Below, piece after piece: positions 37,342 through 48,076 of a DNA stretch of 64,000 nucleotides. The notes beneath the pieces are model-generated. The model did not search any database. It had not been told where the DNA came from and saw only the letters and a program-made list of their open reading frames with translations. Origin of the DNA: Gammaproteobacteria bacterium (lineage in GTDB: Bacteria > Pseudomonadota > Gammaproteobacteria > Steroidobacterales > Steroidobacteraceae); the NCBI GenBank assembly GCA_005878095.1, contig VBNH01000059.1:1-64000 (forward strand), written 5' to 3'. Made by a program: the position numbers and the translations under genes. Each line of letters begins with the position of its first letter. The first letter of the stretch is position 1.

Positions 37342-38085
37342 TCAGTCGCGGCACAAGGCGGCGCGCGCCACGCCGTAGAGGCGCTTGAGTTCCTGTTCCA
37401 TCTGCGATTGCAGTCGTGCGAGCGAGGGCGGGTCGGTGACCCGCGGCACATAACAGGGCGGCCCGATGGCGATCGCGATGCGCGAAAAAGGCGTCGGGAT
37501 CACGAACTTGTCCCACTTGATCAGCCACGCGCGCGAGGCGGCATACGACATCGGCAGGATCGGCCGGCCCGACATCTGCGCCAGCAGCAGTGCGCCGGGC
37601 TTGAATCTGAAGCGCGGCCCGCGCGGCCCGTCGGGAGTGATGACGGGCGAGACGTTGTCCCTGACGAGCGCCTGGTAATAATCGCGCAGCGCCCGCGCGC
37701 CGGTGTGGGTCGAGGAACCGCGGATCACCGCGCCGCCGAAGCGCCGCACCATCATCGCACCGAGCTCCCCATCCACCGACGGACTGATGAGCCAGCCCGC
37801 CGTGAGTCCGCGCGCGCGCTGCTCGACCAGGAACTTGCCGCAATACAGCTGGTGCTGGTGCCAGTAGCACGGCACCAGGGAGGGCGCCCGCGCCAGCGCC
37901 TCGTCCAGGTGAGCCACCCCTTCCACACGCGTCACGCGGCAGGTGAGCCACCAGGCGCGGATGATGGCCAGTCCCAGCGGCACCGCCAGCCGGTACAGCC
38001 AGCGCCGTGCCGGCGTCATCCGCCGCCCCGAGCGTGTCGTGGTGCGGTAAAGCGTGTTGCGCAGTCCGCCGTCATCGCCGCTCAT
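37342..38085 (-). CDS. Lysophospholipid acyltransferase family protein (DUF374-type)
   Basis: PCYWHQHQLYCGKFLVEQRARGLTAGWLISPSVDGELGAMMVRRFGG...VITPDGPRGPRFRFKPGALLLAQMSG. Confidence 0.88.
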   Translation of the reverse strand: MSGDDGGLRNTLYRTTTRSGRRMTPARRWLYRLAVPLGLAIIRAWWLTCRVTRVEGVAHLDEALARAPSLVPCYWHQHQLYCGKFLVEQRARGLTAGWLISPSVDGELGAMMVRRFGGAVIRGSSTHTGARALRDYYQALVRDNVSPVITPDGPRGPRFRFKPGALLLAQMSGRPILPMSYAASRAWLIKWDKFVIPTPFSRIAIAIGPPCYVPRVTDPPSLARLQSQMEQELKRLYGVARAALCRD

Positions 38086-38714
38086 CGGGCGAACAGCTCC
38101 TCGAGCGACAGCGTGCGCACGGTGAGTTCGGGCATCGCGAAGCTGGTCATCACACAGGCAGCCGCTCCCGGAAACACCCCGAGTGCGTGCGCATACCACA
38201 GCTCCCCGCGGCAGCGGGCATGCCCGGGACTCAGGCACACCTCGCGCCATGCCCCGATCCCGGCGCCGCAGGCCTTGAGCGCCGCCTCGCGCGCCACAAA
38301 GTCGGCGATGCGCTCCCCGCTCCCCATCTCGACATCGAAGCCGACGCGACCGGCCCTCACCGCGGCGCAGCCCGCCCAGGGACCTGCGTGCGCAATGCTG
38401 AAGTCGGGCCCGAGGTCCCGCCGCTCGTTGCTAAGCGCCGCACGCGCGGCGCCGCCGTGCGCGAGTCCGGGTTTCGCACCTTGCGCAAACACCATCTCCC
38501 CGGGAGCGACCGCGCGTCCGGTGAGCGCACTGAGGGCGCGCAGCGCGAGCGCGATGCCGGCGAGACTCGCGCGCGCCCCGGGACTGTCCGCGCCGGTCGC
38601 GAGGCGCTTGGCGTACGGCAGACGCGCGGCGAGCGCGCGGGCCGCATCCCGCGGCCACTCACCGCGCAGGTCGGTGTGATATAAGATTAAGGTTTGGCTT
38701 TCAACAGCTTGCAT
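38082..38714 (-). CDS. 4'-phosphopantetheinyl transferase family protein
   Basis: FSIAHAGPWAGCAAVRAGRVGFDVEMGSGERIADFVAREAALKACGAGI; ATGA overlap with the acyltransferase. Confidence 0.8.
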   Translation of the reverse strand: MQAVESQTLILYHTDLRGEWPRDAARALAARLPYAKRLATGADSPGARASLAGIALALRALSALTGRAVAPGEMVFAQGAKPGLAHGGAARAALSNERRDLGPDFSIAHAGPWAGCAAVRAGRVGFDVEMGSGERIADFVAREAALKACGAGIGAWREVCLSPGHARCRGELWYAHALGVFPGAAACVMTSFAMPELTVRTLSLEELFAR

Positions 38715-40023
38715 GACCGCCGCCGCATCTGCGCAGACCCAACCCCCCGAGGCTGAGCTGCAGTTCGACATCGGCTCCACGGATGACTCCCTGGAGCGCA
38801 TGATCGAGCTGTTCACCCGTCTGGGAGACATATATCGCGTGTTCGTGCCGGCACGCGGATCTTATACCTATGTCATTCACCACCCCGATGACGTCAAGCG
38901 GGTGCTGGTTACCAATCATCGCAACTACACCAAGGGCCTCGGCCTCGATCGCGTCAGGATCCTCCTCGGCAAGGGCATCATGACGAGCGAGGGCGAGCTG
39001 TGGAAGCGCCAGCGCTACATGATGCAGCCGCTCTTCCACCGCCGCGTCCTCGGCGGGTTCGCGGGCATCATCGCGGCGGCGAACGACCGCTTCATCGCCC
39101 GCTGGCAGGCGCTCGCGCAGCGCGGCGAGCCCGTGAACCTGACTGACGAGATGAGCGAGCTCACGCTCGAGATCGTATTGCGTTCGATCTTCGGAGGCGA
39201 CCTGGACCGCCTGACTCAGCAGCTCGGCGGCAACCCCTTCGAGGTGGTCACGAAGGAACAGTCGCGCGATCTGCAGTTCGCGTACCGGTTTCGCTCGCTC
39301 ACCAAGATCGTAGCGCAGCTCATCGCGCAGCGGCGCGCCGGGCAGGAGGAGCGCTTCGACTACCTCGCGATGCTCATGAGCGCGCGCGACAAGGAGAGCG
39401 GCGCCCCCATGGGCGAGCGTGAGCTCATCGACGAGGTCATGACGCTCATCGTCGCCGGCCATGAGACCACCGCCAGCGGGCTCAACTGGACCTGGTACCT
39501 GCTTTCCCAACACCCTGGGGTGGAAGCGCGGCTGCATGCGGAGATCGACGCGGCATCCGCCATGCCGGCGCCCGGCCTGGCGCAGCTGGAAGCGCTCAAC
39601 TACACGCACCAGGTCGTCAACGAGGCACTGCGCCTGTATCCGCCGGGATGGCTGCTGTCGCGCCGTACGATCGAGGCGGACGTGCTCGGCGGTTATCCGG
39701 TGCCGCCGGGCACCAACGTGCTGCTGCCGCTGTACCTGCTGCATCGTCACCCGCGCTTCTGGAAGGACCCGGAAGCTTTCTGGCCCGAGCGTTTCGCCCC
39801 CGCGCGCGAGGCCGAGCGTCCGCGCTTCGCCTACATGCCCTTCGCCGCGGGCCCCCGCCATTGCATCGGCGAAACCTTCGCGCTCTACGAGATGCTCATG
39901 CACCTGTACAAGGTCGCGCGCCACTATCGCCTCAGCTACGTGCCCGACAGGCCCGTCGAGCTCGAGGCGCAGATCAACCTGCGCACCCGCTATCCGCTGC
40001 ACATGAGGCTGGAACGGCGCTGA
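38713..40023 (+). CDS. Cytochrome P450
   Basis: I-helix VAGHETTASG, ExxR in NEALRLYPPGW, heme loop FAAGPRHCIGETFA. Confidence 0.97.
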   Translation: MTAAASAQTQPPEAELQFDIGSTDDSLERMIELFTRLGDIYRVFVPARGSYTYVIHHPDDVKRVLVTNHRNYTKGLGLDRVRILLGKGIMTSEGELWKRQRYMMQPLFHRRVLGGFAGIIAAANDRFIARWQALAQRGEPVNLTDEMSELTLEIVLRSIFGGDLDRLTQQLGGNPFEVVTKEQSRDLQFAYRFRSLTKIVAQLIAQRRAGQEERFDYLAMLMSARDKESGAPMGERELIDEVMTLIVAGHETTASGLNWTWYLLSQHPGVEARLHAEIDAASAMPAPGLAQLEALNYTHQVVNEALRLYPPGWLLSRRTIEADVLGGYPVPPGTNVLLPLYLLHRHPRFWKDPEAFWPERFAPAREAERPRFAYMPFAAGPRHCIGETFALYEMLMHLYKVARHYRLSYVPDRPVELEAQINLRTRYPLHMRLERR

Positions 40024-41984
40024 TGTCCACAGCCACGACGCTCACGGAAGTCATCGAGGGCAACCGCGCCTTCCCGCGCAGCATCACCTATCACGCGGGC
40101 GAGGACGACGCGCGCGAGGTGTCGTTCGGCGAGCTGTACGAGCGCTCGCTCGGAATCCTGTACCACCTGCAGCGTCTCGGCGCGCGCCGCGGCGACACCC
40201 TGATCCTGTTCCTGGCCGACAACGAGCAGTTCATCGACGTGTTCTGGGCCGCAATCCTCGGCGGCATCGTGCCCGTGCCAGTGGCGCTGGGCATCAGCGA
40301 CGAGCACCGCCTGAAGCTGCTGCGCATCGCGCGCCGGCTCGGCAAGCCCTTCCTGTACACCGAGCGCCGCGCGCTCGAGCGCATCGGCACCTTCGCGGCG
40401 CAGGCCGGCGAGAGTGCGGTGTTCGAAGGACTGCGGACGCGAGCTTTCCTGGTGGACGACCTGGACGACATCTCGCGCGCCGGCAGCGTGCAGCGCGCGC
40501 TCCCCGGCGACACCGCCTTCATTCAGTTCTCCTCCGGCTCCACCAGCGAGCCCAAGGGCGTGGTGCTCACGCACGGCAACATCATCGCCAACTGGCGTGG
40601 TGCGACCGAAGCCGCGGGCTTCAACGAGCACGACGTGAGTCTGTCGTGGATGCCGCTTACCCACGACATGGGCCTCATCGGTTTGCATCTGGTTATGTTC
40701 GCCAACCGGGTGCACACGCACCTCATGCCCACGGAGCTGTTCATCCGCCGGCCGCTGCTGTGGCTCACACTCGCATCGAGGGTGCGCGCCACGATCCTGT
40801 GCTCGCCGAACTTCGGTTACAAACACTATCTGAAGGTGCTGGGGGAGCGCGCGGTGGAGGGAATGGACCTGTCCGCCGTGCGGTTCGTCTTCAACGGCGC
40901 CGAACCGATCTCGGTCGAGTTGTGCGATGAGTTTCTCACCAGGCTCGCGCCTGCGAAGCTCAAGCGCAACGCCATGTACCCCGTGTATGGGCTGGCGGAA
41001 GCCTCGCTGGCGGTGAGTTTCCCGCCGGTGGGTGCGCCGCTGCGGACCATCACGCTCAACCGGCACCGCATGAACGCCGGCGACCCGGTCGAGCTGGTGG
41101 ATGCGGCCGACCGCGACGCGGTGCGACTCGTCTCCGAAGGACGGGCTATCCCCTATTGCCGCGTGCGCATCGCGGACGATGAGGACCGCGAGCTGCCCGA
41201 GGAGCACATCGGCCACGTGCACATGACGGGGGACAACGTCACGCGCGGCTACTACGAGGACCCCGAGGCCAACGCCGCCGCGTTCACCGCCGACGGCTGG
41301 CTGCGTACCGGTGACCTCGGCCTGATCCACGACGGGGAGCTGTACGTTTCCGGCCGCGCGAAAGAGATCATCTTCGTGAACGGCCAGAACTACTATCCGC
41401 ACGATCTCGAGGCCATCGCGCAGCGCGCCCCGGGGCTGGAGCTCGGCAAGGTGGTCGCCGCCGGTGCACGGGCGCGCGGCGCAGAGATCGAGGAGCTCGT
41501 GGTGTTCGTGCTTCACCGCGGCGGCCTGCCGGAGTTCCTGCCGGTGGCGACTGAGGTCGCGCGCCTCATCAACGAGCAGACCGGGCTCGAGGTGGCGCAG
41601 GTGGTGCCGGTCAAGCGCATCCCCAAGACCACGAGCGGCAAGATCCAGCGCCACCTCCTCGAGGAGGGCTACGCCGACGGGGAGTTCGACGCGGACCTGA
41701 GGGAGCTTGCGGCGCTGCGGGCCGCGCAGCGGGGGCCGGAGTCGGGCACGCGCACCGAGATCGAGCAGAAGCTCAAGACCATCTGCGATGCGGCGCTGCA
41801 CGGCAAGCGCGTGGACGTCCACGACAATCTGTTCGAGATCGGCGCGAGCTCGCTGAAGCTCATCGAAATCCACGAGCAGATCGACCGCGAGTACCCCGGG
41901 CAGGTGGATCTGACCGAGCTGTTCGACTTCCCGACCATCGCCGAGCTCGCGCAGCACCTGCAGGGCAAGCTCGCGCAGGCCTGA
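40023..41984 (+). CDS. Fatty acyl-AMP ligase (FAAL)-like protein with C-terminal phosphopantetheine carrier domain
   Basis: FIQFSSGSTSEPKGVVLTHGN, SWMPLTHDMGLIG, GRAKEIIFVNGQNYYPHDLE; carrier DNLFEIGASSLKLIEIHEQI (GASS codons at 41841..41852); TGATG overlap with P450. Confidence 0.92.
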   Translation: MSTATTLTEVIEGNRAFPRSITYHAGEDDAREVSFGELYERSLGILYHLQRLGARRGDTLILFLADNEQFIDVFWAAILGGIVPVPVALGISDEHRLKLLRIARRLGKPFLYTERRALERIGTFAAQAGESAVFEGLRTRAFLVDDLDDISRAGSVQRALPGDTAFIQFSSGSTSEPKGVVLTHGNIIANWRGATEAAGFNEHDVSLSWMPLTHDMGLIGLHLVMFANRVHTHLMPTELFIRRPLLWLTLASRVRATILCSPNFGYKHYLKVLGERAVEGMDLSAVRFVFNGAEPISVELCDEFLTRLAPAKLKRNAMYPVYGLAEASLAVSFPPVGAPLRTITLNRHRMNAGDPVELVDAADRDAVRLVSEGRAIPYCRVRIADDEDRELPEEHIGHVHMTGDNVTRGYYEDPEANAAAFTADGWLRTGDLGLIHDGELYVSGRAKEIIFVNGQNYYPHDLEAIAQRAPGLELGKVVAAGARARGAEIEELVVFVLHRGGLPEFLPVATEVARLINEQTGLEVAQVVPVKRIPKTTSGKIQRHLLEEGYADGEFDADLRELAALRAAQRGPESGTRTEIEQKLKTICDAALHGKRVDVHDNLFEIGASSLKLIEIHEQIDREYPGQVDLTELFDFPTIAELAQHLQGKLAQA

Positions 41985-47134: not shown

Positions 47135-48076
47135 ATGCTGACCGAGGTTTCCCCGGGCAACGGCAACACCTCCATCACCCTGCCGCTCGCGCCCGCGCGC
47201 CCGGCCTGGTGGGCGCGGTTGCTGGCGCGCATTCCGCTGCGCGCGCTGTACGGCTTTGCCGGCCTCCTCGGCTGGCTCGCGTTTCGGGCGTTCCCCTACC
47301 GCCAGCACGTGGTGCGCGAGAACCTGATCCGGGCATTCCCCGACTTCGACGAGGCGCGCCTGCGCGCGGTGATGCGCGGCTACTACCTCGGCTTCGCGCA
47401 GATGCTGGTGGAGGTCATCAAGTCGGTGACGCTGCCGGCGCAGGAGATCCGCCGGCGCGTGCGCATCGTGAATCTCGAGGCGCCCCGCGCGCTCCTCGCG
47501 CAGGGCCAGTCGGTGCTGCTGGTGGCAGCCCACCAGTGCAACTGGGAATGGATGCTGCTCGCGCTGTCCCTGGAGCTCGGCTATCCGCTCGATGCCGCCT
47601 ACAAGCCGCTGGTGGACAACTGGGCGGAGCGCGAGATGAAGAAAGTGCGAACGCGTTTCGGCAGCCGCCTGGTGCCGGCCAAGGACCTGCTGGCGGACAT
47701 CATCAAGCGCCGCGATGTGGTGCGCGCCGTGGCGATGGTCGCCGACCAGGAACCGACCACCAGCGAGCACAAGTACTGGACCCGCTTTCTCAACCGCGAC
47801 ACCGCCTTTTACCTGGGTGCTGAGGAACTCGCGCGTGTCACACGCTTGCCGGTGTTCTTCATCGCCATGCGCCGCACCGCGCGCGGCTACTACGAAATGC
47901 ACTTCGAACCGCTCGCCAGCGCCGCACAGCCTCTGCCCGCGGGGGCGCTGACCGAACGTTACGCGCGCCGGGTGGAGGAGCAGATCCGCTCCGCGCCCAG
48001 CGACTGGCCCTGGTCGCACAAGCGCTGGAAGCTCAAGCGCTCGCTCTACCAGAACCGCGGCCGCTCCGAGGCCTGA
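47135..48076 (+). CDS. Lysophospholipid / lipid A biosynthesis acyltransferase (LpxL-like)
   Basis: LLVAAHQCNWEWMLLALSLELGYPLDAAYKPL; MVADQEP. Confidence 0.88.
   Translation: MLTEVSPGNGNTSITLPLAPARPAWWARLLARIPLRALYGFAGLLGWLAFRAFPYRQHVVRENLIRAFPDFDEARLRAVMRGYYLGFAQMLVEVIKSVTLPAQEIRRRVRIVNLEAPRALLAQGQSVLLVAAHQCNWEWMLLALSLELGYPLDAAYKPLVDNWAEREMKKVRTRFGSRLVPAKDLLADIIKRRDVVRAVAMVADQEPTTSEHKYWTRFLNRDTAFYLGAEELARVTRLPVFFIAMRRTARGYYEMHFEPLASAAQPLPAGALTERYARRVEEQIRSAPSDWPWSHKRWKLKRSLYQNRGRSEA

Follow-up and report, generated by a model that had tools for sequence, protein, structure and literature searches.

A conserved gene set of a DUF374 acyltransferase, a cytochrome P450 and a carrier-fused fatty acyl-AMP ligase in Gammaproteobacteria, a candidate lipid-modification cassette

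In Vibrio cholerae, the AlmE-AlmF-AlmG system groups an AMP-forming ligase, a carrier and a lipid-A-type transferase; the ligase charges the carrier, and AlmG transfers the unit from the carrier to a lipid A acyl chain (PMC12930378, PMC4790380). We analyzed a 64,000-nucleotide stretch of gammaproteobacterial DNA (the window) that carries a cassette of similar composition, in which genes for a DUF374 acyltransferase (AT) and a 4'-phosphopantetheinyl transferase (PPTase) are divergent from those for a cytochrome P450 and a fatty acyl-AMP ligase (FAAL) fused to a carrier domain. It departs from the Alm system in that the ligase and carrier form one chain, the predicted substrate is a fatty acid rather than glycine, a P450 is added and lipid A is a presumed acceptor. 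Because the ligase belongs to the FAAL group and is not glycine-adenylating, we rejected membership of the cassette in the AlmEFG system. One DUF374 protein is LpxJ, which acts as a late lipid A acyltransferase and has the essential residues W60, H61, D86, D132, W172 and D173 (Rickettsia typhi numbering) and no HX4D motif (PMC6148475). The AT of the window is of the same Pfam family, has the six residues and likewise has no HX4D motif; descriptions of LpxJ, however, include no ligase-carrier or P450 dedicated to it. A hydroxylated secondary acyl chain, which the cassette would yield, is also what the LpxO and LpxN routes provide. LpxO belongs to the dioxygenases, LpxN transfers a 3-hydroxyacyl chain, and a P450 is part of neither route (PMC6963906, PMC3178793, PMC4790380).

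According to published descriptions, bacterial FAALs are always neighbors of polyketide synthase (PKS) or nonribosomal peptide synthetase (NRPS) genes (PMC8460268). In the iturin-type loading modules (BamA/MycA type), FAAL-carriers load fatty acids (PMC11751314), and as in the window the two are joined in one chain. In contrast to both descriptions, the FAAL-carrier of the window is a standalone protein linked to lipid acyltransferases. The window's 95%-complete genome yielded no condensation domain, and a motif check of the window itself revealed no ketosynthase motif; the only two condensation-motif matches in the window both lie in His/Asp/Gln-rich, apparently non-coding antisense frames. 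A standard NRPS/PKS natural-product cluster was rejected on these grounds. The sequence-only reading of this DNA had proposed a lipid-modification cassette lacking a PKS/NRPS core, and this proposal gained support, since many families have FAAL, P450 and AT side by side and condensation domains were sought in the genome without success. In the literature searched on P450s with lipid A acyl chains, or with FAALs and acyltransferases, we found no description of this gene set and no P450-dependent route of lipid A tailoring; the cassette is apparently undescribed.

Conservation of the gene set

To define how far the genes travel together, we searched 196 genomes of the order for FAAL, DUF374 and P450, counting cassette-type FAALs. 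A FAAL was present in 72 genomes and DUF374, at one copy each, in 81, with both in 70 (Fisher 1.4e-38). The cassette-type P450 was accompanied by a FAAL in every case (65/65; Fisher 2e-44), two weaker P450 matches (G020 and G136; 34-36% identity) having been excluded as unlikely orthologues. Eleven genomes had DUF374 without a FAAL; the genes of two of these, G114 and G141, are close to contig starts, which may have cut off the remaining cassette genes. Neighborhoods were counted at loci with enough flanking DNA: 52 of 61 named relatives had both AT and P450 beside the FAAL, as did 18 of 19 loci in the order's other families and 15 of 20 in other families of the class. Over 91 loci, the pairwise protein distances for AT, P450 and FAAL were strongly correlated (r 0.93-0.94; permutation maximum 0.21); shared descent contributes to this correlation, which thus shows joint inheritance and not interaction as such. 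Three rearranged cassettes (L173, L175 and L181) have the AT on the opposite side of the FAAL and retain the same genes. Furthermore, the genes around the cassette vary between families, which makes passive linkage unlikely, and the number of bacterial families in which the set has stayed together is well above a dozen. A search of 399 genomes sampled across the phylum added no strong FAAL match to that of the window's genome, and within the limits of sampling the set seems to be largely confined to this class. We conclude with high confidence that the cassette is a real, conserved functional unit. It represents a large, old FAAL-carrier lineage tied to lipid acyltransferases and P450, contrary to the PKS/NRPS-only description of such ligases (PMC8460268).

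The P450 is missing at several loci that keep AT and FAAL (L101, L103, L111, L113, L127, L168 and L171). Since the P450 is sometimes lost while the other two stay, the minimal unit is AT plus FAAL-carrier, and the P450, usually encoded between them, would be a common tailoring step. In two genomes of a sister genus (L186 and L188), a block of a GGDEF-EAL gene, DUF374 and an irr-type regulator gene occurs without P450 and FAAL. This block points to gain or loss of the donor module next to a resident DUF374 gene.

The fourth gene behaves differently. The PPTase is present in 20 of the 61 named relatives and at 9 of the 20 loci in the class's other families, and at none of the 19 in the order's other families. 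The nearest relative, L035, whose FAAL is 95% identical, has cleanly lost ~565 bp and with them the PPTase, its AT and P450 frames being intact. The window's genome has two other PPTases, one AcpS-like and one a second Sfp-type enzyme. The gene is still constrained, less so than the other three (ratio of nonsynonymous to synonymous substitution rates 0.35-0.51 versus 0.15-0.36 in the same comparisons). We therefore rejected the PPTase as a core member, as it is missing in most relatives and cleanly deleted in L035; judged by these comparisons it is an optional, accessory gene. The earlier claim of a four-gene cassette, for which neighborhood conservation had been named as the check, thus holds for AT, P450 (at times absent) and FAAL and fails for the PPTase, whose absences, deletion in L035, weaker constraint and genomic alternatives all speak against its being a core part of the set; a further LpxL-family gene lies outside the coordinates that claim covered.

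The accessory protein nevertheless appears to be a genuine enzyme. The window PPTase had no Pfam or NCBIfam match at 1e-3, and searches against PHROGs and PDB sequences gave zero matches. Orthologues at the same position (L105, L162, L165 and L135) exceed the PF01648 cut-off, the residues P82, H109, D127, E129, E143 and K147 are invariant in 20 aligned orthologues, and the AlphaFold2 model (predicted local distance difference test (pLDDT) 92) has Sfp (4mrt, E 4e-12) as its top PDB match. Because of these PF01648-matching orthologues, the canonical residues and the structural match, we take the protein to be a genuine but divergent Sfp-type PPTase. The segment separating its DVE and REAALK motifs is shortened in the window's genus.

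The acyl-donor module

The identity of the ligase was assessed by PDB and profile matches. All of its 18 best PDB matches, with E values from 2e-88 to 1e-35, belong to FAALs or FAAL-like proteins such as FadD, acyl-adenylate ligase and McyG; a 4-coumarate-CoA ligase first appears at 2e-28. The best NCBIfam model is the FAAL PRK09192, with a score under its cut-off. Close among the characterized full-length relatives is the BamA loading module (39.5% identity to the FAAL-carrier over the full length). We predict with good confidence that the FAAL charges its carrier with a fatty acid. The P450 has the motifs AGHETT (I-helix Thr) at residue 248, EALR (ExxR) at 304 and the Cys-loop HCIG at 383, and its sequence has no evident membrane anchor. 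It resembles the CYP97/CYP102/CYP3A class, a likeness that does not fix its substrate. The overlap of the P450 and FAAL genes supports action of the P450 on the carrier-bound chain, to which we assign moderate confidence. Scans of plasmids for the FAAL gave one informative match (pDCB2, discussed below) and otherwise NRPS/PKS modules; phages gave weak matches only.

The acyltransferases and the lipid acceptor

We then considered where the acyl chain might be delivered. The AT residues W75, H76, D105, D152, W191 and D192 match all six positions essential in LpxJ, with a spacing similar to that of the Rickettsia enzyme, and the segment H76-Q-H-Q-L-Y does not constitute HX4D. H76, D152 and W191 are invariant in 38 relatives and the other three residues are kept in 33-37 of the 38. 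The best PDB match of the AlphaFold2 model of the AT (pLDDT 92) is Acinetobacter baumannii LpxM (E 2e-6), followed by PatA (4e-4); the TM-scores are moderate (0.45-0.50). An LpxL-family (PF03279) gene for a second acyltransferase recurs near the cassette. At many Steroidobacteraceae-like loci its orthologues lie immediately behind the FAAL in convergent orientation, mostly at 10-180 bp and in some cases at up to ~1 kb, and in two other families of the class such a gene lies 12 and 22 bp behind the FAAL (L174 and L169). Counted within 1.2 kb behind the FAAL, it is found at 19 of 70 named loci and at 2 of 18 other-family loci. In the window it starts 5154 bp downstream of the FAAL, with an irr-type regulator, tRNA-Thr and a resistance-nodulation-division (RND) pump between. 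From these positions, the LpxL-family gene probably belongs with the set as a fifth member. Besides it, the window's genome encodes a strong LpxL on contig C89 and a weak third one; the window's AT is the sole DUF374 of the genome.

Two further loci connect DUF374 with lipopolysaccharide (LPS). In L181 the cassette is part of an LPS-core locus that also encodes HldE-type and epimerase proteins, a pair of heptosyltransferases and a Kdo/WaaP-type kinase, and in L192 a standalone DUF374 gene, its product 45% identical to the window's AT, overlaps two strong LpxL genes. The sequence-only reading had specified no acceptor, and our observations point to lipid A or LPS. Because of the LpxJ residues, the LpxM match and these two contexts, lipid A is favored and is the best-supported acceptor, an assignment we hold at about even confidence. 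In the mechanism that we propose, the FAAL would adenylate a free fatty acid and load it on its own C-terminal carrier at Ser610, the carrier having been converted to its holo form by the adjacent PPTase or, in genomes that have lost that gene, by a different PPTase. The P450 would then hydroxylate or otherwise oxidize the carrier-bound chain, and the DUF374 (LpxJ-type) AT, together with the LpxL-type one where present, would place it on a lipid hydroxyl as a secondary acyl group. We give an even chance to the overall reading of the locus as a cassette that supplies and transfers acyl chains for an outer-membrane lipid, lipid A being the most probable one.

Several observations weigh against lipid A. 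The six LpxJ residues are conserved throughout DUF374 as a whole and so do not fix the substrate of the AT. Most cassettes lie among unrelated genes, so that a minority of loci supports the LPS link, and to our knowledge no lipid structure is known for these bacteria. The position of most cassettes away from LPS genes suits a different membrane lipid as acceptor (an aminolipid, lysophospholipid or glycolipid) with the same donor logic, in which the AT would act like OlsA or PatA and the LpxL-type neighbor would be incidental or serve the same lipid. Enzymes of the lysophospholipid acyltransferase (LPLAT) group do use many acceptors, among them phosphatidylinositol mannosides for PatA and aminolipids for OlsA-type members (PMC11631085), and PatA is the second structural match of the AT. 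The linkage to the LpxL family, the LPS-core context of L181, the DUF374-LpxL operon of L192 and the rank of LpxM as top structural match run counter to this alternative, which we consider unlikely while giving it more weight than any other rival. A sphingolipid-type pathway, in which the cassette would supply an oxidized acyl chain to a ceramide-like lipid, is suggested by the conjugative IncP plasmid pDCB2 of Diaphorobacter sp. JS3051 (L135 55-24510). Here PPTase, P450 and FAAL (P450 51% and FAAL 48.6% identical to those of the window) lie inside a sphingolipid cluster that has a serine palmitoyltransferase over the NCBIfam cut-off, LptF/LptG-type permeases and a lipid kinase, and that has no DUF374. 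The donor module can thus serve another lipid, a further point against a dedicated lipid A role, and it seems to be portable between envelope lipids. The plasmid cluster recalls the Caulobacter-type ceramide and ceramide phosphoglycerate pathway (PMC11324152). Unlike that pathway, the window's genome yielded no serine palmitoyltransferase at E 1e-70, and the enzyme occurs in 14 of the 196 order genomes, only one of which has the cassette. We therefore rejected the sphingolipid role for this organism and regard it as highly improbable.

Also against simple transfer to lipid A is the family f7, in which L125 (11566-12531) and eight other loci have a gene for a FabH-type beta-ketoacyl-acyl carrier protein synthase III (KAS III) 3' of the FAAL and on its strand; the spacing, measured at two of these loci, is 3 and 27 bp. 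This gene is not accounted for by simple transfer and hints at an extra elongation step in f7. It can also be read in favor of a small secreted or signaling acyl compound, such as a hydroxy-fatty-acid ester, with the AT joining the P450-modified chain to a small alcohol; FAALs with tailoring oxygenases are, moreover, common in natural-product clusters. The lack of any NRPS condensation domain found in the genome and the family-wide conservation, which resembles that of an envelope trait and not of a sporadic natural-product cluster, argue the other way, and we judge this explanation improbable. As for chance adjacency of four unrelated lipid genes in one genome, the surrounding genes are indeed ordinary and differ between families. 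Co-occurrence, co-evolution and adjacency across many families already refute it for AT, P450 and FAAL, and it retains practically no credence. The fuller proposal, that a widespread branch of the class builds a secondary lipid A chain from free fatty acids through a FAAL-carrier, oxidizes it on the carrier with a P450 and installs it with an LpxJ/LpxL-type pair, is more tentative than the acceptor assignment itself and is offered as a possibility short of an even chance. If lipid A is the acceptor, this would be new chemistry altering the outer membrane, which controls permeability to antibiotics and peptides, and the DUF374 family would gain a dedicated acyl-donor system. The cassette is small and conserved, and thus directly testable.

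Locus layout and related loci

Open reading frame and profile checks of the window located all four genes, confirming the gene calls and coordinates given in the sequence-only reading together with the two overlaps that it listed (Table 1). The AT and PPTase genes overlap by ATGA at 38082-38085, and the P450 and FAAL genes by TGATG at 40021-40025, with one shared base. The start codons of PPTase and P450 overlap head to head in CATG (38712-38715), so no free intergenic space exists between the two divergent pairs. The carrier serine is Ser610, in a GASS motif, and its codon lies at 41850-41852, as had been predicted. A TATAAG-like element is located within the 5' end of the PPTase gene (38665-38715) and is unchanged in L035 despite the PPTase deletion.

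Table 1. Positions in the window of the cassette genes and the probable fifth member
Feature	Position	Strand	Basis
DUF374 (LpxJ-type) acyltransferase (AT)	37342..38085	-	PF04028 E 1.9e-19
Predicted divergent Sfp-type 4'-phosphopantetheinyl transferase (PPTase), accessory	38082..38714	-	Invariant residues, AlphaFold2 model, orthologues
Cytochrome P450	38713..40023	+	PF00067 E 4e-76; AGHETT, EALR, HCIG motifs
Fatty acyl-AMP ligase (FAAL) fused to carrier domain	40023..41984	+	PF00501 and PF00550
LpxL-family acyltransferase, probable fifth member	47135..48076	+	PF03279 E 4.6e-36

Other gene arrangements were seen around related proteins. A DUF3108 gene adjoins the AT in most f7 loci (L123-L134), and DUF3108 also occurs in the pDCB2 cluster. 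At three loci of related genomes (L067 6628-7998, L076 6552-7736 and L058 6642-7901), the FAAL is directly behind a radical SAM/SPASM gene that replaces the P450; there is no DUF374 nearby, and at least two of these are second FAAL copies in their genome. On contig C155 of the window's genome (L211 and L208), a carrier, an AMP-ligase-like open reading frame and a weak LpxL-family acyltransferase occur together, perhaps as an aryl-polyene-type cluster. Contig C96 of the same genome (L207 and L212) has an adenylation-carrier protein, a TauD-like oxygenase and an Sfp-type PPTase in a row.

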